This document shows, piece by piece, positions 3,753-31,199 of a stretch of DNA of 43,312 nt; position 1 is the first letter of the stretch, and each line of letters opens with the position of its first letter. A model generated the notes under the pieces. That model was given only the letters and a program-made list of their open reading frames with translations. It was not told the origin of the DNA and searched no databases. The position numbers and the translations under genes are program-made. Origin of the DNA: Caldifarciminota bacterium (GTDB lineage: Bacteria; Hydrothermota; UBA3073); contig JAGMCL010000082.1 in NCBI GenBank assembly GCA_023129165.1, positions 1-43,312 of the forward strand, read 5' to 3'.

Positions 3753-4235
3753 AGAATAAGGGTAGACCACCCCGTTGAAATAGATATTCATTTCACGGGG
3801 CAAGCAGACTGCAGACTAACTGAAAATGACTAATTTCTAATGACCAAAGGTAATAATTTACTATAGCATAACACTTCAATCCTCTATGCATTACCAAGGT
3901 AATGCCTGCCTGACGGTAGGCTGGCACTCCAGATACCAGTGAAAGGAAAAAGGATAAAGGGAAAAGGATAAATTTCTAATTGCTCTAATTTCTAATGCCT
4001 AATTAAATCCCAATGACTAATGACCCTGATGAAATAGATACTCATTTCACCCTGTACGCTATGCTACAGGACAGGCGGGGCAAGCACCTGATGAAATAGA
4101 TACCCCGTTGAATAGCTTCCTGCAGAAATAGCTCCCTCATGGAGTAGTTTACACACTTCACGGGGCGAGAAGCATATCACAGGACAAGTCGCTTCCACGG
4201 GGCAGGGAAGTAGGCACTATTCAGGCAAAAGACTT
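3753..4235. repeat. Repeat-filled intergenic region ending at the tRNA-Leu 3' end
   Basis: There is no gene here. A simple unit CCCCGTTGAAAT...ATTTCACGGGG lies at about 3772-3800. A CCTGCCTGACGGTAGGC module lies at 3903-3922. From about 4023 to 4196 runs a composite block of nested CCC...GGG palindromes closely related to the 172-bp block at 10474 and 29674. The final segment GGAAGTAGGCACTATTCA also occurs at about 6422-6440. Short ACTAATTTCTAATGACCA-type tracts fill the rest. Confidence 0.75.
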
Positions 4236-4320
4236 GCCGGGAGTCGGACTCGAACCGACACGGCTTCTAAAAGCCAGCAGATTTTAAGTCTGCTGTGTCT
4301 ACCAATTCCACCATCCCGGC
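4236..4320 (-). tRNA. tRNA-Leu (anticodon UAA)
   Basis: Read on the minus strand, the 85-nt gene begins GCCGGGATGGTGGAATTGG and ends CCGACTCCCGGC. The acceptor stem pairs (GCCGGGA with TCCCGGC). The anticodon arm is GCAGA-CTTAAAA-TCTGC, which places TAA at positions 34-36. The long variable arm (TGGCTTTTAGAAGCC) is typical of class II tRNAs. The T arm contains GGTTCGAGTCC. CCA is not encoded (AAG follows), so it must be added after transcription. Repeat blocks abut it on both sides. Confidence 0.97.
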
Positions 4321-10473: not shown

Positions 10474-10645
10474 TGACCCTGATGAAATAGATACCCCGTT
10501 GAATAGCTTCCTGCAGAAATAGCTCCCCCATGGAGTAGTTTACACACTCCACGGGGCGAGAAGCATTTCACAGGACAAGTCGCTTCCACCGTAATGTAAT
10601 AAAGTGAAACATTACATATGGCAGGCAGGGCAGGCTACATTTCAC
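10474..10645 (+). repeat. 172-bp nested-palindrome block, copy 1
   Basis: Identical base for base to 29674-29845, exactly 19,200 nt away. It consists of CCC...GGG palindromes nested inside one another's loops; the structure is set out at the second copy. Identity ends at 10645/29845, just before the last bases of the outermost arm. Here that arm reads ATTTCACGGGG, against ATTTCACAGGG in the other copy. Confidence 0.95.
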
Positions 10646-10684
10646 GGGGCAAGCGGGATAAATAAGGCGTAAGGCGTAGGGAGT

Positions 10685-13060: not shown

Positions 13061-13650
13061 TTAGCCGCTAAGACACAGAGTATTCAAAAATTATATCTAC
13101 CTTTACAAAGATAAGTTATTGAGTCTTAGAATCTTATATATGACACGGTTTATTGAGTCCCAGTGAAATATGCTTCCCGATGAAATAGTTAGACAATTCA
13201 CGGGACAAGTCGCATTTCACGGGGACGCTTTACGCACTACGCTTTTCGCTCTTCATTCATCGCAACCGGGAGGTTGCTCCTACCAATCGCCCCGCCAAAT
13301 GCGGGACTCATACCACCTAACACCTGTATCCTAAAACCTCTCACCAACATTCAACTAATTAACTATTCAACCAATTAACTCTTATTCCATTTCTCCCATT
13401 CACCGTTTCTCAATTCATCGCCCTACGACCTACGCTCTACGTTATACTCTTTCCCCTTCTGTTATTTTGCATTGCTAATTGCTAATTTTGCATTGTTAAT
13501 TGACTTCCTCCTTCCCTTTTCGCCCCGCCAAAGGCGGGGCTCCTACCCTCCTTTTATCTTCCCCCTAAAAAATTATTTTAGTGTTATTTTTTTCAGTTTT
13601 TTAACGTAAAAGTTGGCCAGTAAACAAATAAGGTGGAAATTAGCCATTAA
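13061..13650. repeat. Repeat-filled region upstream of mraZ
   Basis: No gene is seen. At 13157-13223 there is a 67-nt two-level nested palindrome (outer CCCAGTGAAAT...ATTTCACGGG, inner CCCGATGAA...TTCACGGG). It is the exact reverse complement of 26143-26209 upstream of murG. REP-like hairpins on the minus strand lie at 13261-13283, 13288-13313 and 13521-13546. About 13345-13400 carries the A/C-rich AACTAATTAACTATTCAACC tract, the complement of the tracts found after stop codons elsewhere. Confidence 0.8.
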
Positions 13651-14527: not shown

Positions 14528-15397
14528 ATGCTTCACACACCAGTTTTAGTCGATAAAGTACTCTGGTATGTAAAGGGTGGGGTGTGGGTAGATGCTACTA
14601 TTGGTACAGGAGGGCATACAGAGGCTATACTTACCAGATATAAAGAAGTATTTATATATGGTGTCGATATAGATGGAGAAACGCTCGATGTTGCTCGGAA
14701 GAGGTTGAGAAAATTTAAGGGAAGGTTCAAATTAATCCAGGGGAACTTCCGCAATCTAAATAAACTCATACCCGGTTATTTTGATGGAGTGCTCTTTGAC
14801 ATCGGAGTATCTTCTTTCCAGTTGGATGATGCAAAAAGAGGGTTTTCGTTTAGATTTGATGGTCCCCTTGATATGAGAATGGATAGAAACAGTGGCGTAG
14901 CACTATATAGACGATTTAAATATCTTAGAAAGATGGAGATAGAGGAGATTATCAGGAATTATGGTGAGGAAAGGTATGCGAGAGTGATAGCAGGGAGATT
15001 ATACGATTTAAAGGATAAAATTCGTACTACAGGTGAATTTCGAAGCCTTATAGGGAGGAATCCCAAAACACTCTCAAGGGTTTTCCAGGCTTTCAGGATA
15101 TTCATGAACGAGGAATTAGAAAATCTTAAGGGGGGACTGCAATTTGCTGTTTCTAAGCTTAAGGAGGGTGGTAGAGTCGCTGTTATATCCTATCACTCGC
15201 TTGAAGATAGGATTGTTAAGCAATTTTTTAAAGATAATGATAATCTTAGGATTTTGACGAAGAAACCAATAACACCATCTTATGAAGAGATTAGTTTAAA
15301 CTCCCGTGCAAGAAGTGCCAAGATGAGAGTTGCGGAGAAAAGGGAATTGCAATTGACTATTGACCCTGATGAAATAGATACTCATTTCACAGGGTAA
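14528..15397 (+). CDS. rsmH: 16S rRNA (cytosine-1402-N4)-methyltransferase RsmH
   Basis: A SAM-dependent methyltransferase acting on 16S rRNA C1402. Family motifs: HTPVLVDKV at the N-terminus, DATIGTGGHTEAIL (SAM loop), GVLFDIGVSSFQLD, RGFSFRFDGPLDMRMD, AVISYHSLEDRIVKQFF and SRARSAKMRVAEK. The ATG is chosen because M-L-H-T-P-V-L is the conserved N-terminus; an in-frame TTG lies 3 nt upstream. The last 17 residues (bases 15344-15397, from ELQLTIDPDEIDTHFTG) are not family sequence. They translate a dispersed repeat whose palindrome CCCTGATGAAAT...ATTTCACAGGG supplies the final codons, with the TAA stop completed just after it. Confidence 0.96.
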   Translation: MLHTPVLVDKVLWYVKGGVWVDATIGTGGHTEAILTRYKEVFIYGVDIDGETLDVARKRLRKFKGRFKLIQGNFRNLNKLIPGYFDGVLFDIGVSSFQLDDAKRGFSFRFDGPLDMRMDRNSGVALYRRFKYLRKMEIEEIIRNYGEERYARVIAGRLYDLKDKIRTTGEFRSLIGRNPKTLSRVFQAFRIFMNEELENLKGGLQFAVSKLKEGGRVAVISYHSLEDRIVKQFFKDNDNLRILTKKPITPSYEEISLNSRARSAKMRVAEKRELQLTIDPDEIDTHFTG

Positions 15398-15657
15398 ACG
15401 ATTGATGATTGACGATTGCGAAGGGCGTCGGGCGTCCCAGTGAAATATGCTTCCTGTTGAATAACTTCGTTTCCACAGGACAAGTCGCATTTCACCCCGT
15501 ACGCTATCGCTACAGGACAGGCACCCGATGAAATAGATACCCCGTTGAATAGCTCCGCTTCCACGGGGCAGGCTACATTTCACGGGGCAAGCGGGATAAA
15601 TAAGGCGTAAGGTCTAGGGAGTGAAACGGAGAAACGGAGGGGAGAGAAGGGTAGAAG
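15344..15657 (+). repeat. Composite palindromic repeat block starting inside rsmH
   Basis: It begins with GAATTGCAATTGACTATT (also near 20326), then a simple CCCTGATGAAAT...ATTTCACAGGG unit (15363-15395). A longer composite at 15436-15610 includes CCCAGTGAAATATGCTTCC, CCCCGTACGCTATCGC and CCCGATGAAATAGATAC with the CCCCGTTGAA...TTCCACGGGG unit nested inside it. It ends in the GGGATAAATAAGG tail and a G/A-rich stretch. No gene lies between 15398 and 15863. Confidence 0.8.
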
Positions 15658-18433: not shown

Positions 18434-19867
18434 ATGCTTCTAAGGGAAATTATACCAAATGCAATAGAGGAGTTGAAGATTGATTCAGAGCTTGCTAATA
18501 TTGATATTAAAGGAATTGCATATGATTCAAGAGATGTTAAACCCGGGTACGTATTTTTTGCCAGAAAGGGCGAGAAGATAGATACGCATAATTATATTGA
18601 GGATGCTCATAATAGAGGTGCAGTTTTGTTTATAGTAACAAAGGATGTTGACAATCCGTATCCAAAAATAGTTGTAAAAGATTCAAGGAAAATGCTTGCC
18701 GTTCTCTCCGGCAGATTCTATGGTAGTCCCTCAGAGAAAATGAAGGTTGTAGGGATAACCGGTACAAATGGAAAAAGCACAGTAACCATCATATTACATT
18801 CAATTTACGAAACCAGTGGTATTCCATGCGGACTTATTGGAACCATTTTTTACAAAATATCCTCATCTACTCTTTCTGCGAATCTGACAACCCCTGAGTC
18901 ACTTGATATTGCGAGGTTGATGCATAGGATGTTAAAAAGGGGCGTAAATAATATTGTTATGGAGGTATCCTCACATGGCATAGCACAGAGTCGTATAGAA
19001 GGAATAGATTTTGATATTTCAGGTCTTACATGTATTGGCAGAGACCATCTTGATTATCATCTGACATTTGAAAATTATCTTGAGACCAAGCTATCTTTCT
19101 TCAGGGGATTAAAGAAGCAAGGTTTAGCAGTGTTACCACAGGGAGATTATTTTGAACTATTTAAATCCAGTACCCGTGCAAGGACATTAAGCTATGGTTA
19201 CACAGGTGGATTGGATTATTGTGGAAATATAATCTCAATAGGAATGGAGGGTATGGAGTTGGAGTTTGAAACACCTTATGGTAAGGAAAGATTTCATTCA
19301 AGGATGACTGGAAGACACAATGCTTTAAACATACTTCTGGCATATACAATCGCAAAAGAGGATGGTCTTCAGCCATCAGATATAATTGAAGGTATTAAAA
19401 AGGTTAGTATGATTCCTGGAAGATTCGAACGCATTGGAAATGTCATCGTGGATTTTGCTCATACGCCGGATGCAATGACTGCTGTTTTGAAATCGGCAAA
19501 GGGTTTTACAAGAGGAAAGTTAATTACCGTATTTGGGTGTGGAGGAGATAGAGATAAAGGTAAAAGACCCTTAATGGGAGAAGTTGCAGCCAGTTTATCT
19601 GACTACGTATTCATAACATCAGATAATCCAAGAACAGAGGACCCTTATACAATAATAAAAGACATAGAAGAAGGGATAAGTGGGAAAAATTATGAGGTTA
19701 TCTTAGATAGAAAGAATGCTATAAGAAAGGCGTTAAACTTAGCTCGTGAGAATGATATTGTGCTTATACTTGGTAAGGGACACGAAACATACCAGATAAT
19801 TGGCGAAGAGAAAAGACCCTTTAATGATAGGAAGGTTGTGAGGGAAATATTATATGGAAAATGTTAA
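18434..19867 (+). CDS. murE: UDP-N-acetylmuramoyl-L-alanyl-D-glutamate--2,6-diaminopimelate ligase
   Basis: A 477-residue cytosolic Mur ligase adding the third stem-peptide residue. N-terminal substrate domain: IAYDSRDVKPGYVFFARKG. ATP site: GITGTNGKST (about 107-116). Also TTPESLD, MEVSSHG and HTPDAM. The D397-N-P-R400-TEDP motif is the meso-diaminopimelate selector, so the wall is predicted to be DAP type. AGGAAA precedes the ATG. The last seven codons lie in a 21-bp unit (19851-19871) that is repeated exactly in tandem at 19872-19892, so the downstream repeat tract begins inside the gene. Confidence 0.96.
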   Translation: MLLREIIPNAIEELKIDSELANIDIKGIAYDSRDVKPGYVFFARKGEKIDTHNYIEDAHNRGAVLFIVTKDVDNPYPKIVVKDSRKMLAVLSGRFYGSPSEKMKVVGITGTNGKSTVTIILHSIYETSGIPCGLIGTIFYKISSSTLSANLTTPESLDIARLMHRMLKRGVNNIVMEVSSHGIAQSRIEGIDFDISGLTCIGRDHLDYHLTFENYLETKLSFFRGLKKQGLAVLPQGDYFELFKSSTRARTLSYGYTGGLDYCGNIISIGMEGMELEFETPYGKERFHSRMTGRHNALNILLAYTIAKEDGLQPSDIIEGIKKVSMIPGRFERIGNVIVDFAHTPDAMTAVLKSAKGFTRGKLITVFGCGGDRDKGKRPLMGEVAASLSDYVFITSDNPRTEDPYTIIKDIEEGISGKNYEVILDRKNAIRKALNLARENDIVLILGKGHETYQIIGEEKRPFNDRKVVREILYGKC

Positions 19868-20035
19868 ATGTTATATGGAAAATGTTAAATGTTGAAGGTG
19901 GAATGAAATGTTACATGTTAAATGTTTAATGTTAAATGTTGAAGGTGGAATGTTAAATGTTTAATGTAGAATGTTGAGTAGAATGTTAAATGTGTAATGT
20001 TAAATGTTTAATGTTGAATGAGATAAGAGTTGATT
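19851..20035 (+). repeat. 21-bp tandem duplication and 7-nt ATGTTNA tract after murE
   Basis: TATATGGAAAATGTTAAATG-T occurs twice in a row (19851-19871, 19872-19892), the first copy covering the murE stop codon. Then follow about 140 nt of ATGTTAA/ATGTTTA/ATGTTGA words (7-nt steps) with almost no C. Such tracts carry stops in several frames. Confidence 0.85.
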
Positions 20036-20117
20036 AGTTGAATAGTTAATTGGTTGATTAGGTTAAATGATATTGGAAAGCAATCGTAAATCGACAATCG
20101 AAAATAGTAAATTAATG

Positions 20118-20405
20118 GTAGGAGCAACGTCCTCATTACAAAAATAGGTAGGAGAGACTTCATAGTCTCGATAAAAGCGTATGGCGAAATGCGTCCCAGT
20201 GGAATAGTTGACACATTCCACCCCGTACGCTATCGCTACAGGACAGGCACCCGTTGAAATAGATACTCATTTCACGGGGCAGGCGGGATAAATAGGGAGT
20301 GAAACGGAGAAACGGAGAGGAGCGGAATTGCAATTGACTATTTACTATTGACGATTGAAGATTAACGAATAACAATTAACCAATAACCAATAACTAATAT
20401 GGATG
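20118..20405 (+). repeat. REP-like hairpins and palindromic block upstream of murF
   Basis: REP-like elements lie at 20118-20139 (stem decayed: GCAAC versus ATTAC) and 20148-20172 (GAGACT/AGTCTC). A CCC...GGG block at about 20192-20290 contains GTGGAAT...ATTCCAC, CCCCGTACGCTATCGC and a simple CCCGTTGAAAT...ATTTCACGGGG unit. Then come a G/A-rich stretch and an A/C-rich leader (AACCAATAACCAATAAC) before the murF ATG. No gene is seen from 19868 to 20409. Confidence 0.8.
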
Positions 20406-24719: not shown

Positions 24720-25802
24720 ATGGAACAAGCCAAAAAAGGATTAGACGTAACTCTATTACTTGTAACAGTAACCCTTCTTCTCCTGGGGTTACTTGCAATC
24801 TATTCTTCAAGCTCATTCCATGCTATTAGGAGTAAGGATAACAGTCTATTTTATATTGTAAATCAGTTAAGGCCACTTTTTATAGGAGGTCTACTTGCAT
24901 TAATATTAAGTAAGATAAATTACAAAATTTGGGGAAAACTTTCGCCGGTCTTTCTGTTATTTGCCTTGTTTTTACTCTTCTATGTTGTATATTTCAGCAA
25001 ACCAATAAATGATGTTCAGAGATGGATAAAAATTGGTGGTGTGTCCATACAACCCAGTGAATTTGCCAAGATAGCAATTATTCTCTGGCTTTCCTATTAT
25101 CTCACCAGATACAGGGAAAAGATAAAAAGGCTGTGTTGGCTTTTACCAGTGGTTTTGGTCTCTTCTGCTGTAATTGTTTTACTCATACTTGAGCCATCTT
25201 TTGGTGTGGCGTTCACAATCTGCCTCTCTGTGTTAATCCTGATGTTTGTTGGAGAGGTTAAAATGAAATATATTATTATCTTTACAGGTCTTGTTGGAAT
25301 CATGTTATTATTAAGTATGTCCAAAACTCCATATGCAAAAACACGGTTTGATAATTATTTATCAGGTGAGGTATATCAGGTAACCCAGTCTATGCAAGCC
25401 ATAGGCTCGGGTGGAATTTTTGGTGTGGGTCTTGGACAGGGTAAAGAGAAATTATTCTTTTTACCTTACCCACATACAGATTTTATCTTCGCAAGTTTTG
25501 CAGAGGAAATTGGTTTGGTTGGTTCTATTCTGATATTGGGTCTTTTTTCTATATTCTTTTTACGAGGGATAAGAATATCCGCACATGCTCCAACAAAATT
25601 TGGGAGTCTTCTTGCATTTGGGCTATCCTTAAACATATTTCTCTCAGCGCTACTACACATAGGTGTTGCTTCTGGTTTAATTCCAACCACCGGTATTCCT
25701 TTGCCGTTTATATCATATGGAGGAAGTTCACTTGTAGTCAACCTTGTATCTGTAGGAATACTTCTGAATATATCAAAACAGGGAAAAGTGTTGAATAGTT
25801 GA
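24720..25802 (+). CDS. ftsW: Peptidoglycan glycosyltransferase FtsW
   Basis: A SEDS-family inner-membrane glycosyltransferase (360 residues from this ATG) that polymerises septal glycan with FtsI. Motifs: LLGLLAIYSSSSFHA in the first membrane span, W-I-K-I-G-G-V-S-I-Q-P-S-E-FAKIA, YQVTQSMQAIGSGGIFGVGLGQG, LPYPHTDFIFASFAEEIGL and PTTGIPLPFISYGGSSL. An in-frame TTG at 24702 would overlap murD; the ATG is preferred. The stop codon lies inside a TTGAATAGTTGA word that opens the stop-rich tract downstream. Confidence 0.96.
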   Translation: MEQAKKGLDVTLLLVTVTLLLLGLLAIYSSSSFHAIRSKDNSLFYIVNQLRPLFIGGLLALILSKINYKIWGKLSPVFLLFALFLLFYVVYFSKPINDVQRWIKIGGVSIQPSEFAKIAIILWLSYYLTRYREKIKRLCWLLPVVLVSSAVIVLLILEPSFGVAFTICLSVLILMFVGEVKMKYIIIFTGLVGIMLLLSMSKTPYAKTRFDNYLSGEVYQVTQSMQAIGSGGIFGVGLGQGKEKLFFLPYPHTDFIFASFAEEIGLVGSILILGLFSIFFLRGIRISAHAPTKFGSLLAFGLSLNIFLSALLHIGVASGLIPTTGIPLPFISYGGSSLVVNLVSVGILLNISKQGKVLNS

Positions 25803-25895
25803 ATAGTTAATTAGTTGAATAGTTAATTAGTTGAATAGTTAATTGGTTGAATAGTTGTTTAGTTGAATAGTTGATTGGTTGATTGGTTGAATGTT
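25788..25895 (+). repeat. 4-nt-stepped stop-codon tract after ftsW
   Basis: A run of TTGA-ATAG-TTAA-TTAG words begins inside the last codons of ftsW. Successive stop codons (TGA, TAG, TAA, TAG) occur every 4 nt, so each reading frame meets a stop within about 12 nt. Similar tracts follow murF, murB, ftsA and lpxA. Confidence 0.9.
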
Positions 25896-25997
25896 TAATG
25901 TGGAATGTGAGAAGCATATGGCGTAAGGCGATTGACGAGTACCAGAGTATATCAGTATATCAGCAGATCAGTAGGCAGAATATCAGATTATCAGGAG

Positions 25998-26209
25998 GTA
26001 GGAGCAACATCCTCGTTGAGATAATTTAATCGGGGTTAGGAAACCCCTCCTACAAAAAGGAAGGTAGGAGAAACGGAAAAACGGTGAATTGCGAATTTCT
26101 AATTACAAATATCTAATTTATAAATGAACCCAACAAATTTATCCCGTGAAATGCGACTTGTCCCGTGAATTGTCTAACTATTTCATCGGGAAGCATATTT
26201 CACTGGGAC
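25998..26209 (+). repeat. REP-like hairpin pair and inverted 67-nt palindrome upstream of murG
   Basis: REP-like elements: 25998-26022 (plus strand, GCAACATCCTCGTTG) and about 26030-26054 (minus strand, GGGGTT/AACCCC stem), facing each other. 26143-26209 is the exact reverse complement of 13157-13223, a two-level nested palindrome. The ftsW-murG spacer contains no gene. Confidence 0.9.
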
Positions 26210-27277: not shown

Positions 27278-28617
27278 ATCATATACATTTCGTTGGTATT
27301 GGCGGCTCTGGAATGAGTGGAATTGCAGAGGTACTTATTCACTCAGGTTATAAGGTTACAGGGTCTGATATAAAAAGGTCAGCTGTAACCGATAGACTTA
27401 CGAGACTCGGTGCAGCTATAGTGTACAGGCATAGAGGAGAAAATGTAAAGAATTCAGAAGTGCTTGTTTATTCGTCCGCAATAAAGTATTCCAACCCTGA
27501 AATCGTGGCTGCTCAAATGAAGGGAATACCAATTATACCAAGAGCAGAAATGCTTGGTGAGTTAATGAGAATGAAACAGGGTATAGCCATTGCGGGAACG
27601 CATGGGAAGACAACCACAACCTCGATTGTTGCCAGAATACTTGAATTTTCTGGTTATGACCCTACTGTTGTAGTTGGAGGTAGAATAAAGAATATAGGAA
27701 CGGGTGGAAAACTTGGAGAAGGCGAGTATTTTGTATGTGAAGCAGATGAGAGTGACCGGTCTTTTTTATGTTTATCTCCAGTAATATCAATGATAACATC
27801 AATTGACGCTGATCATCTTGATAAGTACAAGGATATTGAGGAAATAAAAGCTGCATTTGTTGAGTTTGCTAATAGAGTTCCTTTTTATGGGTTTTTAATA
27901 CTTGCTTATGATGATGAAAACGTTAAGGGTATAATAGAGAAGGTGAGAAGAAGAACCATTACATATGGTCTTTCTCGAGGTGTGAATGTGCTAGGATATG
28001 ACTTGTCTCTTGGTGTGACCTCAGAATTTAGTGTGAAGAAGAATAGGGATAAAATTGGTAGGTTCTCTTTTCCCCTTCCGGGTAAGCACTATGTAACAAA
28101 TGCTGTTGGTGCAATAGCCCTTGGTTTAGAATTGGAGATTCCAGGAGGTTGTTTGAGAGATGCAGTTGCAGGTTTTGAAGGAGTGGAAAGGAGATTTGAA
28201 TTCATCAGGAAAGAGAATATTAAAATTATAGATGATTATGCCCATCATCCAAAGGAAATAGAGGAAACTATAAAAGCCGCGAGACTTATACAGGATAAGA
28301 GGATAATTGTTATATTTCAACCACACCTCTACTCAAGGACCTTTAAACTTCTTGATGGTTTTGCAAAAAGTTTGGGTATGGCAGACGAAGTTATAGTAAC
28401 GGATATATATCCTGCCAGAGAGGAGCCAATTCCCGGGGTAACTGGAAAGATTATTGTAGATAAGATGATTAAAAATGGAAAAAAGGCTTTGTATATCCAG
28501 GAAAGTAGGGAGATAGCGAAATATGTTAAAAAAATGGTAAAGAGAGACGATATGATTCTAACACTTGGGGCAGGTAATATCCGAAAGGTAGCATTAGAAA
28601 TTAATAAAATCCTATGA
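27262..28617 (+). CDS. murC: UDP-N-acetylmuramate--L-alanine ligase
   Basis: A 451-residue Mur ligase catalysing the first stem-peptide addition. It has HFVGIGGSGMSGIAEVL (UDP site), GTHGKTTTTS (ATP loop), EADESDRSFL, SIDADHLD, GVERRFE, DDYAHHPKEIE, FQPHLYSRT and YPAREEPIPGVTG. Length is normal. The start overlaps murG by 16 nt and the stop overlaps the murB ATG by 4 nt, giving a tight murG-murC-murB unit without repeats between the genes. Confidence 0.97.
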   Translation: MFRHINHIHFVGIGGSGMSGIAEVLIHSGYKVTGSDIKRSAVTDRLTRLGAAIVYRHRGENVKNSEVLVYSSAIKYSNPEIVAAQMKGIPIIPRAEMLGELMRMKQGIAIAGTHGKTTTTSIVARILEFSGYDPTVVVGGRIKNIGTGGKLGEGEYFVCEADESDRSFLCLSPVISMITSIDADHLDKYKDIEEIKAAFVEFANRVPFYGFLILAYDDENVKGIIEKVRRRTITYGLSRGVNVLGYDLSLGVTSEFSVKKNRDKIGRFSFPLPGKHYVTNAVGAIALGLELEIPGGCLRDAVAGFEGVERRFEFIRKENIKIIDDYAHHPKEIEETIKAARLIQDKRIIVIFQPHLYSRTFKLLDGFAKSLGMADEVIVTDIYPAREEPIPGVTGKIIVDKMIKNGKKALYIQESREIAKYVKKMVKRDDMILTLGAGNIRKVALEINKIL

Positions 28618-29456
28618 AATTACTTCAGAATGAACCACTAAGGCATCACACGACTATGGGTGTTGGGGGAAATGCAAGAATGTTCGCATATCCTGAGACA
28701 TTCGATGAATTTCTCATGCTCCTTAAGGAAAGATATTTCATCATTGGAAGGGGTAGTAATCTTATATTTACTGACAATAATTTCGATGGTACAGTTATAT
28801 CTTTGGAAAAATGTTTTAATGCACTTTCTTTTGAACAAATCGACAGTAAAAGGAAACTTGTAAAAGTTGGGGGTGGAGTTTCCCTTAAGAGACTTCTTAG
28901 AGAGTGTGTAAGAGAAGGGTTACATGGACTTGAATTTCTATGGGGAGTTCCTGGAAGTGTGGGGGGGGCTTGTCACACAAATACAGGTGCATTTGGTTCT
29001 TCATTTCTTGAATATATCAAGGAGATACAAATTGTAAATCAAGATGATAAAGGCATTAAATCCCTAAAAAGGGAGGATATTATCTTCTCAGATAGAGTTG
29101 GCGTTAAGTCTGTAATTGTAATAGATGCCCTCCTCATACTTGAAAGGGGTGAATCAGAAGAAAGATTGTCAGAATTTCGTAAATGGCGACGCGGACATCA
29201 ACCAATTGATAAAAAAACAGCAGGATGCATTTTCAAAAACCCTCCAGGAGATTATGCAGGCAGGCTAATTGAGAAGGTGGGATTAAAAGGAGAAAGAATT
29301 GGTGATGCTGGAATATCCGAAAAACATGCAAATTTCATAGTCAACTTTGGGAAAGCGACATTTAGAGATATTTTGTCTCTAATAGAAATGATGAGTGAAA
29401 AGGTTTTTGAGATGTTTGGAGTAAAACTTGAGTTAGAGGTTGAGATTGTAGGATAA
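28614..29456 (+). CDS. murB: UDP-N-acetylenolpyruvoylglucosamine reductase
   Basis: A 280-residue FAD/NADPH enzyme forming UDP-MurNAc. It has LRHHTTMGVGGNA, GRGSNLIF (FAD site), LHGLEFLWGVPGSVGGACHTNTGAFG, WRRGHQPI, and the catalytic segment TAGCIFKNPPGDYAGRLIE...GISEKHANFIVN. The proton donor normally written S in (S)AGSxFKNP is cysteine here (Cys205); cysteine in this place can retain function in this enzyme class. The C-terminal Glu lies in LELEVEIVG. Its ATG overlaps murC by 4 nt. Confidence 0.96.
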   Translation: MKLLQNEPLRHHTTMGVGGNARMFAYPETFDEFLMLLKERYFIIGRGSNLIFTDNNFDGTVISLEKCFNALSFEQIDSKRKLVKVGGGVSLKRLLRECVREGLHGLEFLWGVPGSVGGACHTNTGAFGSSFLEYIKEIQIVNQDDKGIKSLKREDIIFSDRVGVKSVIVIDALLILERGESEERLSEFRKWRRGHQPIDKKTAGCIFKNPPGDYAGRLIEKVGLKGERIGDAGISEKHANFIVNFGKATFRDILSLIEMMSEKVFEMFGVKLELEVEIVG

Positions 29457-29579
29457 AAGTTGATTAGTTGAATAGTTAATTAGTTGAATGTTGGTGAGAG
29501 GTTTTAGGATACAGGTGTTAGGTGGTAGGAGTCTCACCTTTGGCGGGGCGATAGGTAGGAGCAACGTCCTCGTTGCGAA
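29457..29579 (+). repeat. Stop-rich tract and REP-like hairpins after murB
   Basis: GTTGATTAGTTGAATAGTTA begins 2 nt after the murB stop. REP-like elements lie at 29525-29552 (GTAGGAGTCTCACC..., stem partly decayed) and 29555-29579 (GCAAC/GTTGC). Next come TCTAATTTCTAATTAAAT and CAGACTGAAGACCGCAGAC tracts. No gene (and so no ftsQ or ddl) lies between murB and ftsA. Confidence 0.85.
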
Positions 29580-29673
29580 GAGCGAATTTCTAATTTCTAA
29601 TTAAATACAAATGACTAATGTCAAAAGGAAAAGACCGCAGACTGAAGACCGCAGACAGCAGACTGAAGAAAAA

Positions 29674-29849
29674 TGACCCTGATGAAATAGATACCCCGTT
29701 GAATAGCTTCCTGCAGAAATAGCTCCCCCATGGAGTAGTTTACACACTCCACGGGGCGAGAAGCATTTCACAGGACAAGTCGCTTCCACCGTAATGTAAT
29801 AAAGTGAAACATTACATATGGCAGGCAGGGCAGGCTACATTTCACAGGG
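29674..29849 (+). repeat. Four-level nested palindrome block, copy 2
   Basis: Identical to 10474-10645 over 172 nt. Arms, outermost first: 29677-29688 with 29839-29849 (CCCTGATGAAAT/ATTTCACAGGG); 29694-29703 with 29784-29789 (CCCCGTTGAA/TTCCAC, right arm interrupted); 29710-29720 with 29765-29774 (CCTGCAGAAAT/ATTTCACAGG); 29726-29736 with 29746-29756 (CCCCATGGAGT/ACTCCACGGGG). A further hairpin, GTAATGT (29791-29797) with ACATTAC (29809-29815), interrupts the second-level right arm. Confidence 0.9.
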
Positions 29850-29969
29850 CAAGCAGGGCAGGCAGGGTAAACGGGATAAATAAAGATAATAACTAATGTC
29901 TAATGACGAATGACTAAATAATCAATCTTCAATAGTCAATCGTAAATTGTCAATTATTCAGGGGGAATT

Positions 29970-31199
29970 ATGAAGAATGAAATTATTGCTGGGCTTGACC
30001 TCGGCACAACAAAGGTTGCTTGTATTATAGCCAACGTTATACAAAAGAACAATGTCGAGATAATAGGATTAGGAATTAGTCCCTCAACAGGTTTGAGAAG
30101 AGGAATAGTGGTCAATCTCGAAAGAACTACAGAGTCTGTCAGAAATGCAGTAAATGAGGCAGAGAAAATGGCGGGGATAAAGCTCACACAGGCATATACC
30201 GGTATTGCAGGAGACCATATAAGGGGTCAGACCTCAAGAGGGGTTATTGCAATATCAAGACCTACAAAGGAGATTAGTAAATCAGATATTGACAGGGTGA
30301 TAGAACAAGCAAAGGCAGTCTCTATACCCATGGATAGGGAAATAATACATGCAATCCCACAGGGGTTTATCGTTGATGACCAACCTGGCATAAAAGATCC
30401 GGCAGGAATGTCAGGAGTGAGACTCGAGGCAGACGTCCATATAGTAACTGGTGCAGTTACATCGGCACAGAATATATACAGGTCGGTTGAGAAAGCTGGA
30501 ATTCAGGTAAGGGATCTTGTCCTGCAACCCATTGCCTCAAGCTATGCTGTAATAGACCCTGAAGAAAAGGAACTTGGTGTAGCACTAATTGATGTAGGCG
30601 GAGGAACAACAGATACTGCACTGTTCTATGATGGCACCATAAGAGATACTTTCGTTATTGGACTCGGTGGTGTAAATGTAACAAATGATATTGCTGTAGG
30701 ATTGAGGACACCCAGGATGTATGCTGAAGAGATAAAGATAGGTCAGGGTGTGGCGAGAAATAACCTGGTAGGTGATACTGAAACAATAGACGTTCCTGGT
30801 ATCGGAGGAAGGCCAGATAGAAAAATAAAACGTAAGCTTCTTGCCAGCATAATACAACCCAGGCTTGAAGAGATATTCACACTCGTATATAGAGAACTTC
30901 GTAGAAGTGACTATATAGATCTCATATCAGCGGGTATAGTATTGACAGGTGGGGCTGCCAAGATGGATGGCATAGAAGAACTCGCCGAAAGTATCTTTGG
31001 ATTACCAACAAGGGTGGGGATTCCCAGTGGAGCAGGAAGTATGGCAGACATGGTTAGGGACCCCATACACTCTACAGGCGTAGGACTCGTTTTATATGGA
31101 TATGAACACAGAGGAAGAGCTGGTATAGGAAGGCCGGGAGTAGATGGCTCTTTGTTTACAAAAATCCTTGAGCGAATGAAAAGATGGCTTTTGGAATAA
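29970..31199 (+). CDS. ftsA: Cell division protein FtsA
   Basis: A 409-residue actin-like ATPase that tethers FtsZ to the membrane. It has IAGLDLGTTKVACI (phosphate 1), a SHS2-like insert (TGIAGDHIRGQTSRGVIAIS), ALIDVGGGTTDTALF (phosphate 2), GLGGVNVTNDIA and VLTGGAAKMDGIEELAE (adenosine site). The C-terminal FTKILERMKRWLLE is an amphipathic membrane-targeting helix. A strong GGGGGA precedes the ATG. It is separated from ftsZ by a 332-nt repeat-filled spacer rather than by the usual few bases. Confidence 0.97.
   Translation: MKNEIIAGLDLGTTKVACIIANVIQKNNVEIIGLGISPSTGLRRGIVVNLERTTESVRNAVNEAEKMAGIKLTQAYTGIAGDHIRGQTSRGVIAISRPTKEISKSDIDRVIEQAKAVSIPMDREIIHAIPQGFIVDDQPGIKDPAGMSGVRLEADVHIVTGAVTSAQNIYRSVEKAGIQVRDLVLQPIASSYAVIDPEEKELGVALIDVGGGTTDTALFYDGTIRDTFVIGLGGVNVTNDIAVGLRTPRMYAEEIKIGQGVARNNLVGDTETIDVPGIGGRPDRKIKRKLLASIIQPRLEEIFTLVYRELRRSDYIDLISAGIVLTGGAAKMDGIEELAESIFGLPTRVGIPSGAGSMADMVRDPIHSTGVGLVLYGYEHRGRAGIGRPGVDGSLFTKILERMKRWLLE

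Follow-up and report, generated by a model that had tools for sequence, protein, structure and literature searches.

Nested hairpins between murB and ftsA of a WOR-3 bacterium: a probable stack of serial insertions by miniature mobile palindromes

What process places one palindrome inside another, several levels deep, in a single bacterial intergenic region? Such a structure lies between murB (28614-29456) and ftsA (29970-31199) in the window, the 43,312-nucleotide stretch analysed here, which is a complete contig (C135) of the 3.03-Mb, 153-contig genome of a WOR-3 bacterium (G000). The earlier note on this DNA had described four nested arm pairs and a fifth hairpin at 29677-29849. All of them were present: the gap contains five hairpin units, of which four are nested and one lies within a stem. 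They were recovered by an automatic parser, which removes the innermost hairpin of the form CC...GG plus tail and then searches again, iteratively. The units as delimited by this parser, and a second copy of the whole nest, are as follows.

29677..29853, + strand: O2, the outermost unit, which carries all others; CCCTGATGAAATAGATA...ATTTCACAGGGCAAG
29695..29834, + strand: I1, the second unit, in the O2 loop at GATA^CT; CCCGTTGAATAGCT...GCTTCCA...CAGGGCAGG
29710..29779, + strand: I2', the third unit, in the I1 loop at GCT^TCGC; CCTGCAGAAATAGCT...AAGCATTTCACAGGACAAG
29726..29760, + strand: I3, the innermost unit, in the I2' loop; CCCCATGGAGTAGTTTACACACTCCACGGGGCGAG
29789..29825, + strand: N, the fifth unit, in the 3' arm of I1 at CCA^CAGGG; CCGTAATGTAAT...ATTACATATGGCAGG
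10477..10653, + strand: the five-unit nest again, complete, 176/177 identical, flanked by TTGA^CGGG

Two of the earlier boundaries were changed. The 3' arm of I1, placed at 29784-29789, is real, but it is split by the fifth hairpin and resumes at about 29826-29834. The fifth hairpin, placed at 29791-29815, exists, but its true extent makes it a complete unit (29789-29825). The second copy of the nest had been overlooked. The two 177-bp copies (29677-29853 and 10477-10653) differ by one base and stand in unrelated flanks; therefore, the five-unit composite was copied as one unit. The focal nest is flanked by ATGA^CAGG, which obeys the A^C rule described below. Folding of the 177-nt strand as DNA gave -27.6 kcal/mol, with a z value of -4.0 against shuffled sequences.

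The closest named match to the window is the WOR-3 MAG JAUWGP010000012.1 (L016), which has the same FtsA protein and approximately 97% identical DNA and belongs to a sister genome (G001). The counts given here cover approximately 753 kb of G000 and 636 kb of G001, with smaller samples of other genomes; the stretches were selected around hits, and absolute densities are therefore biased upward. The parser found 35 insert-hosting units in G000 (753 kb), versus 2 in the same sequence read backwards. The corresponding values were 34 versus 6 in G001 and 6 versus 0 in a second relative.

A unit comprises about 27-42 letters. It begins with CC, continues with a stem of 8-11 bp (often with one bulged base) and a small loop, and closes with GG followed by a short conserved 3' tail, G/A-C/T-A-R-R. 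The tails are CAAG, CAGG, TAAA and similar ones, corresponding to the tags CTTG, CCTG and TTTA on the complementary strand. For the unit type O1, stem covariation over 28 distinct variants was 0.202, compared with 0.106 in shuffled sequences, and none of 500 shuffles was as high. The pair 8-24 was GC in 15 variants and AU in 13 with no exceptions, which indicates compensatory changes. Besides the two nests, the window contains the following units and composites; the first four had been proposed earlier as un-nested relatives and proved to be real.

3770..3804, + strand: un-nested O2 unit, common to the sister genome
11124..11157, - strand: un-nested O2 unit
15364..15398, + strand: un-nested O2 unit at TTGA^CGATTG
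20250..20283, + strand: O2 unit adjoining an M unit, within an O1 unit (20195-20292)
15524..15591, + strand: O2 with I1 alone (I1 at 15540-15572), an intermediate stage of the nest
13159..13224, + strand: O1 with I2 (13176-13209) in its loop
26138..26207, - strand: O1 with I2 in its loop
2664..2735, + strand: N unit hosting a T unit (2692-2726), 3' arm site TTACA^TATGG
4024..4210, + strand: O2 with M at its 3' foot, then a partial nest O2[I1[I2'[I3]]], with I3 at 4135-4169 and the outer right arm missing
15436..15600, + strand: composite of O1 (loop insert, and M in the 3' arm) followed by O2[I1], ending in GGGATAAA

The intergenic DNA of the window, for example at 19845-20384, 25781-26208 and 29452-29915, is a mosaic of further short repeats (TTGAATAGTTAATTAG, AGACCACAGACATCAGACC and CAATCGTAAATTGTCAATC).

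We consider, with a probability of about 0.93, that the nest was built up by miniature mobile hairpins inserting one after another. The earlier note had proposed a family of tiny mobile palindromes whose members enter older copies, and this proposal is borne out by restored hosts, by intermediate stages and by orthologous hosts in the occupied and empty states. When the insert is excised, as had been suggested, the host becomes a simpler unit known elsewhere: it was identical to a free unit in 4 cases and one edit away in 16. In a boundary test, the restored host was within one edit in 18 of 31 cases at the true boundary, and in 0 of 31 when the cut was shifted by 3 nt or more.

Furthermore, the stages of the nest coexist. 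Empty O2 gave 15 matches in the sampled stretches. The stage O2[I1] is found at 15524-15591 in the window and in L213 and L214 (G001 also has O2 with only I1). An I1-type host carrying I2' without I3 occurs in L308 (G001) and in L304 (G002), the latter itself inside an O1-like unit, and I1[I2'[I3]] without N occurs in L294/L137. The complete nest is present twice in the window, with a diverged copy in L154/L296. Inner units always found with the same outer units had been named as an argument against serial insertion. This is the pattern of I3 (CCCCATGGAGTAG...), for which all copies (8/8) lie inside its host; that host, I2', also occurs without I3, in G001 and G002. A second, independent series is formed by the T unit CCCCGTTAGATAGTAAACATCTAACAGGG, which here is the host. 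It is empty at L134:14090 and 14380, and at L156:4221 and L154:3499 it is occupied by exactly 33 bp, TCCC...CAAG, between AGTA and AACATC.

The insertions follow simple rules. Within the host, only two positions are used, the apical loop and the 3' arm. Nested units have the orientation of their host, in ratios of 53:1 and 39:0 (same to opposite) in the two genomes; eight apparent cases of opposite nesting turned out to be read-through of adjacent units and contained no true nests. The duplication at insertion is 0-1 bp, and none is seen in two clear cases, AGTA^AACATC (L134 versus L156) and AGCT^AAGC. Class A units, with the tails CARG or GTAAA, have A^C at 77 of 137 distinct flanks, AC accounting for 4.9% of the dinucleotides of the genome. 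Class B units, with the tail GGGATAAA, have GT^T at 58 of 67 flanks. A^C is thus the target of most subfamilies and GT^T that of one. The rule concerns this dinucleotide (A^C or GT^T), and the tetranucleotide varies among sites. A^C also holds for un-nested insertions in plain repeats.

The commonest hosts contain few such sites. The O1 host CCCAGTGAAATATGCTTCGCATTTCACGGGATAAA has AC at TTTCA^CGGG alone, and the O2 host at GATA^CTC and TTTCA^CAGGG alone; all of these are used by class A inserts. The loop sites of I2 and I3 (T^T and C^A) fall outside the A^C rule and may derive from a small number of events. A rule that placed 3' arm sites opposite the bulge was dropped, as most of these sites are covered by A^C. 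The first letter of a unit is C, and a new insertion therefore restores A^C on its left side; tandem arrays in which, for example, ...CAAG is followed by CC... would be explained in this way. At L135:4200-4289, at least four M-like units (CCCTGCACATTACCACTACAGGGCAGG) stand head to tail, as is expected if insertion re-creates its own target.

These features suggest how the units might move. They would do so as folded single-stranded DNA, with cutting and joining in trans by a transposase of the HUH/Y1 type (RAYT or IS200/IS605-like). The units land in host orientation and duplicate no more than 1 bp, class A mostly at A^C and class B mostly after GT. The loops and 3' arms of the units supply such target sites, and a finished composite can travel as one larger hairpin, as the two 176/177 copies of the nest illustrate. 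A HUH/Y1 transposase is our best guess because of the hairpin shape, the bulged stems, the lack of real duplication, the strict orientation and the tag-plus-hairpin arrangement on the complementary strand, where CTTG, CCTG or TTTA lies 5' of the hairpin foot as in the REP layout. As the mover it is put forward tentatively, at somewhat under even odds. The full account, serial insertion together with single-stranded HUH/Y1 movement, is the best explanation that we can offer and is fairly probable as a whole.

Y1 transposase genes are present in all five genomes of the family, with eight in G000. The NCBIfam model for REP-associated tyrosine transposases identifies one of them clearly and matches two more below its cut-off. 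None of the 30 Y1 loci inspected in the five genomes was flanked by units; they had other palindromes or none. Beside the Y1 genes of L130 (the clear NCBIfam match) and L131 (just below the cut-off), on C50 and C90 of the same genome, lie GTAG-type palindromes (GTAGGAG..., GTAGCCGCAACC...), which also occur at 29541-29585 in the window and elsewhere. This means that ordinary REP families coexist with the nested family.

An autonomous element bounded by widely separated unit arms was sought in approximately 1.4 Mb, and the search gave only long-loop or nested units of 63-177 bp. Arm pairs at kilobase distance were rejected as a full-length element, being chance arm matches whose ends do not match. 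Seven ORFs had units on both sides, and none (0/7) was transposase-like by eye. A 62-bp unit version with a long loop (CCCTGTGGAATAAAAC...CTATCTATTCCACGGGGCAAG) was seen at L149:12512, L153:12192 and L156:14952 in the same genome and at L228:3606 in G001. These copies have longer flanks in common and lie near contig ends in two of the own-genome stretches; the version may be part of a larger repeat. At L134:14999-15123 (C12 of the same genome), two long-loop units overlap, TTTACCCCGTGGAAT...ATTCCACAGGGTAAA, with arms lengthened by TTTA/TAAA. A further nested palindrome family, CCCCGCACTTATGC[CCCGCACCTAATAGGTGCGAGGG]TATGCATAAGTGCGGGGCAGG, is found at L137:14388-14441 and L158:6578-6631; its stem sequence is unrelated, and it has a CAGG tail as in the nested family.

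Movement of the units as MITEs, that is, as tiny inverted repeats handled by a double-strand DDE transposase with a 1-bp duplication or none, seems improbable, although it is the strongest of the alternatives. The paired arms do resemble terminal inverted repeats, and a 1-bp duplication (C...C, T...T) is one possible reading of the class A and B junctions. However, a DDE substrate of approximately 35 bp would be very short, duplication is absent in the two clear cases given above, nesting is strictly in one orientation, and a full-length element with such ends is absent from the approximately 1.4 Mb. A target site duplication of at least 2 bp, as for DDE MITEs, was not found, the comparison of empty and occupied hosts giving 0-1 bp.

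It had also been proposed that the units prefer hairpin loops. This holds in part. Among 26 distinct combinations of insert and host, 12 use the apical loop, but 14 lie in the 3' arm near its base, four to nine bases before the arm end, and the largest class targets A^C inside and outside hairpins alike. Even so, the data point to units as favoured targets. Units nested in another unit number 39 of 154 and 35 of 140 in the two genomes (approximately 25%), far above their 4.1-4.3% share of the sampled noncoding DNA; this excess is only indicative, because composite copying inflates the count (copies of one composite are not independent events) and the stretches were chosen around hits. The subfamilies show preferred hosts and positions: I2 is in the loops of O1 and I1, I1 in the loop of O2, T in the 3' arm of N, and M and N inserts in the 3' arms of O1, O2 and I1. 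It is possible, but rather doubtful, that the hairpins serve as mutual attachment sites, with preferred hosts and positions for each subfamily, re-creation of the target, and a single-strand DNA recombinase that moves units and composites.

The search for occupied and empty sites in relatives, as had been suggested, gave orthologous hosts of both states in the sister genome. One O1 unit, without any insert in G000 (L146:7009-7043), contains both a loop insert and a 3' arm insert in G001 (L218:6923-7017). The flanks match over approximately 65 bp on the left (two mismatches) and 23 bp on the right, with 18 extra bases to the left of the G001 unit. At L159:14967-15063 and L155:639-768, two sites of G000 are filled, their G001 counterparts being empty (L159/L204 and L155/L219). 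The O1 units at 13159 in the window and at L215:258 have a loop insert in one genome and a 3' arm insert in the other; they share 34 bp of left flank, the right flank being different, and are likely orthologous, forming a reciprocal pair. Such comparisons between relatives are compatible with either ancestral state. Precise gain is preferred over loss, because the ends of the inserts share at most one base, which is too little for ordinary slippage deletion.

The intergenic DNA of the window is almost wholly unlike that of the sister genome (L016), the flanking genes being approximately 97% identical. This fast turnover, the arms and tails common to units, which make exchange easy, and the recurrence of whole composites might suggest that the nests arose by recombination or template switching among repeat copies (modular exchange, gene conversion) with no transposition. 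This seems quite unlikely. Inserts with unrelated stems stand at the identical host position, and the A^C rule is followed also by the un-nested insertions in plain repeats. Moreover, the 3' half of the occupied host in L218 has the variant of its own empty orthologue in L146 (CGTATTTCA), not the common form.

The right end of class A and B units is present in 5/5 genomes of the GTDB family, reversed controls being near zero. Of 147 genomes of the WOR-3 phylum, 10 (6 genera) have the O1 pattern. An identical 35-mer is found in other families of the phylum, and a variant has 13 copies in G136. The pattern was absent from 50 genomes reached via FtsA matches, mostly of other phyla, and a scan of IMG/VR gave no match; the simple O2 pattern is limited to the genus. 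The scattered identity of O1 across families suggests that the units may have spread horizontally with a shared enzyme, or may use one. An Rfam covariance-model search of the window at the gathering score gave a tRNA at 4235-4320 alone and no unit match. RNA-mediated copying, of the kind proposed for the GC clusters, hairpin elements of yeast mtDNA that would retrotranspose (PMC4478555), is very improbable, as the reverse transcriptase domain RVT_1 was found in none of the five family genomes. An immobile conserved structured RNA or regulatory element, with arms under selection, would account for the compensatory changes and for the exact 35-mer in other families, but it is equally improbable, for Rfam matches are absent and orthologous intergenic sites vary in the presence, number and kind of units.

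Among bacterial kinds, the nested family is nearest to REP, BIME and REPIN sequences, which are likewise intergenic 20-40 bp hairpins, often bulged, with a tag at one foot (PMC3116915, PMC3733652, PMC6006769). Movement of REPs and REPINs as single-stranded DNA in trans by Y1 transposases has been proposed (the same papers), and Di Nocera et al. located GTAG-15, GTAG-23 and CGTC-1 elements inside palindromes. The units are indeed mostly intergenic and present in many copies, with 154 per 753 kb of G000, 11 of them overlapping ORFs (15 of 140 in the other genome). They are not classed as REP, because the tails have no GTAG/GTGG tag at the hairpin foot and linkage to a RAYT (REPtron) was not found, 0 of 30 Y1 loci having units on both sides. 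In addition, REPINs are head-to-head dimers, whereas the present units form nests of one orientation, several deep. The CGTC superfamily, defined by a CGTC (TGTC, CCTC) tag, an 8-9 bp stem starting with AT, a loop of 4-5 nt and a tail near CCA (PMC3733652), was rejected: CGTCCC precedes some O1 copies only by virtue of a GCGT flank, and other flanks and subfamilies are without it.

As in IS200/IS605 elements, insertion is without target duplication and in fixed orientation (0-1 bp; 53:1 and 39:0). No ends in common with a full-length tnpA element were found among the Y1 loci or the long-loop pairs. For IS200/IS605-derived miniature elements, insertion 3' of a particular tetra- or pentanucleotide would be expected; the unit sites show the dinucleotide rule A^C or GT^T and no constant tetranucleotide. 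Cyanobacterial SDRs (Elhai et al. 2008, cited in PMC3116915) are reportedly very small mobile repeats of bacterial intergenic DNA without a gene of their own, and resemble the units in these respects. Insertion sequences that target REPs also insert at specific sites within palindromic units, but they are full insertion sequences with their own transposase, whereas in the nests a tiny hairpin inserts into members of its own family (PMC1525189).

The earlier note recognised no described family with such nesting. For bacteria this stands: in openly accessible papers, no family with multi-level, same-orientation, fixed-position nesting was found. It does not stand for organelle DNA. In Volvox carteri, mitochondrial and plastid palindromes are often inserted within one another, in composites of up to 633 nt; they are likewise small noncoding hairpin elements, with large composites at several locations (PMC2670323). 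They differ in belonging to algal organelles and in their short loops, mostly TAAA/TTTA, and the accessible part of that paper does not report constant insertion positions, uniform orientation, a target dinucleotide or a stepwise series of empty and occupied hosts. The GC clusters of yeast mitochondria (PMC4478555) and the sponge RHE (PMC2800124) are also short mobile hairpins, and GC42 has an AG target dinucleotide and constrained stems (PMC4478555). They are organelle elements, for which the available parts of both sources do not report multi-level site-specific nesting; a possible RNA route is proposed for the GC clusters, in contrast to the absence of RVT_1 here.

The spread of REP-like hairpins in bacteria is a long-standing question, since an individual insertion into plain DNA is difficult to retrace. 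In the present family the elements enter one another, and each nest is thus a dated stack that shows the boundaries, target, orientation and succession of events with a precision of one base. The coexistence of empty, intermediate and occupied stages provides precise substrates for testing what moves bacterial hairpin elements, and the nested family would be a bacterial parallel to the nested palindromes of Volvox organelles.
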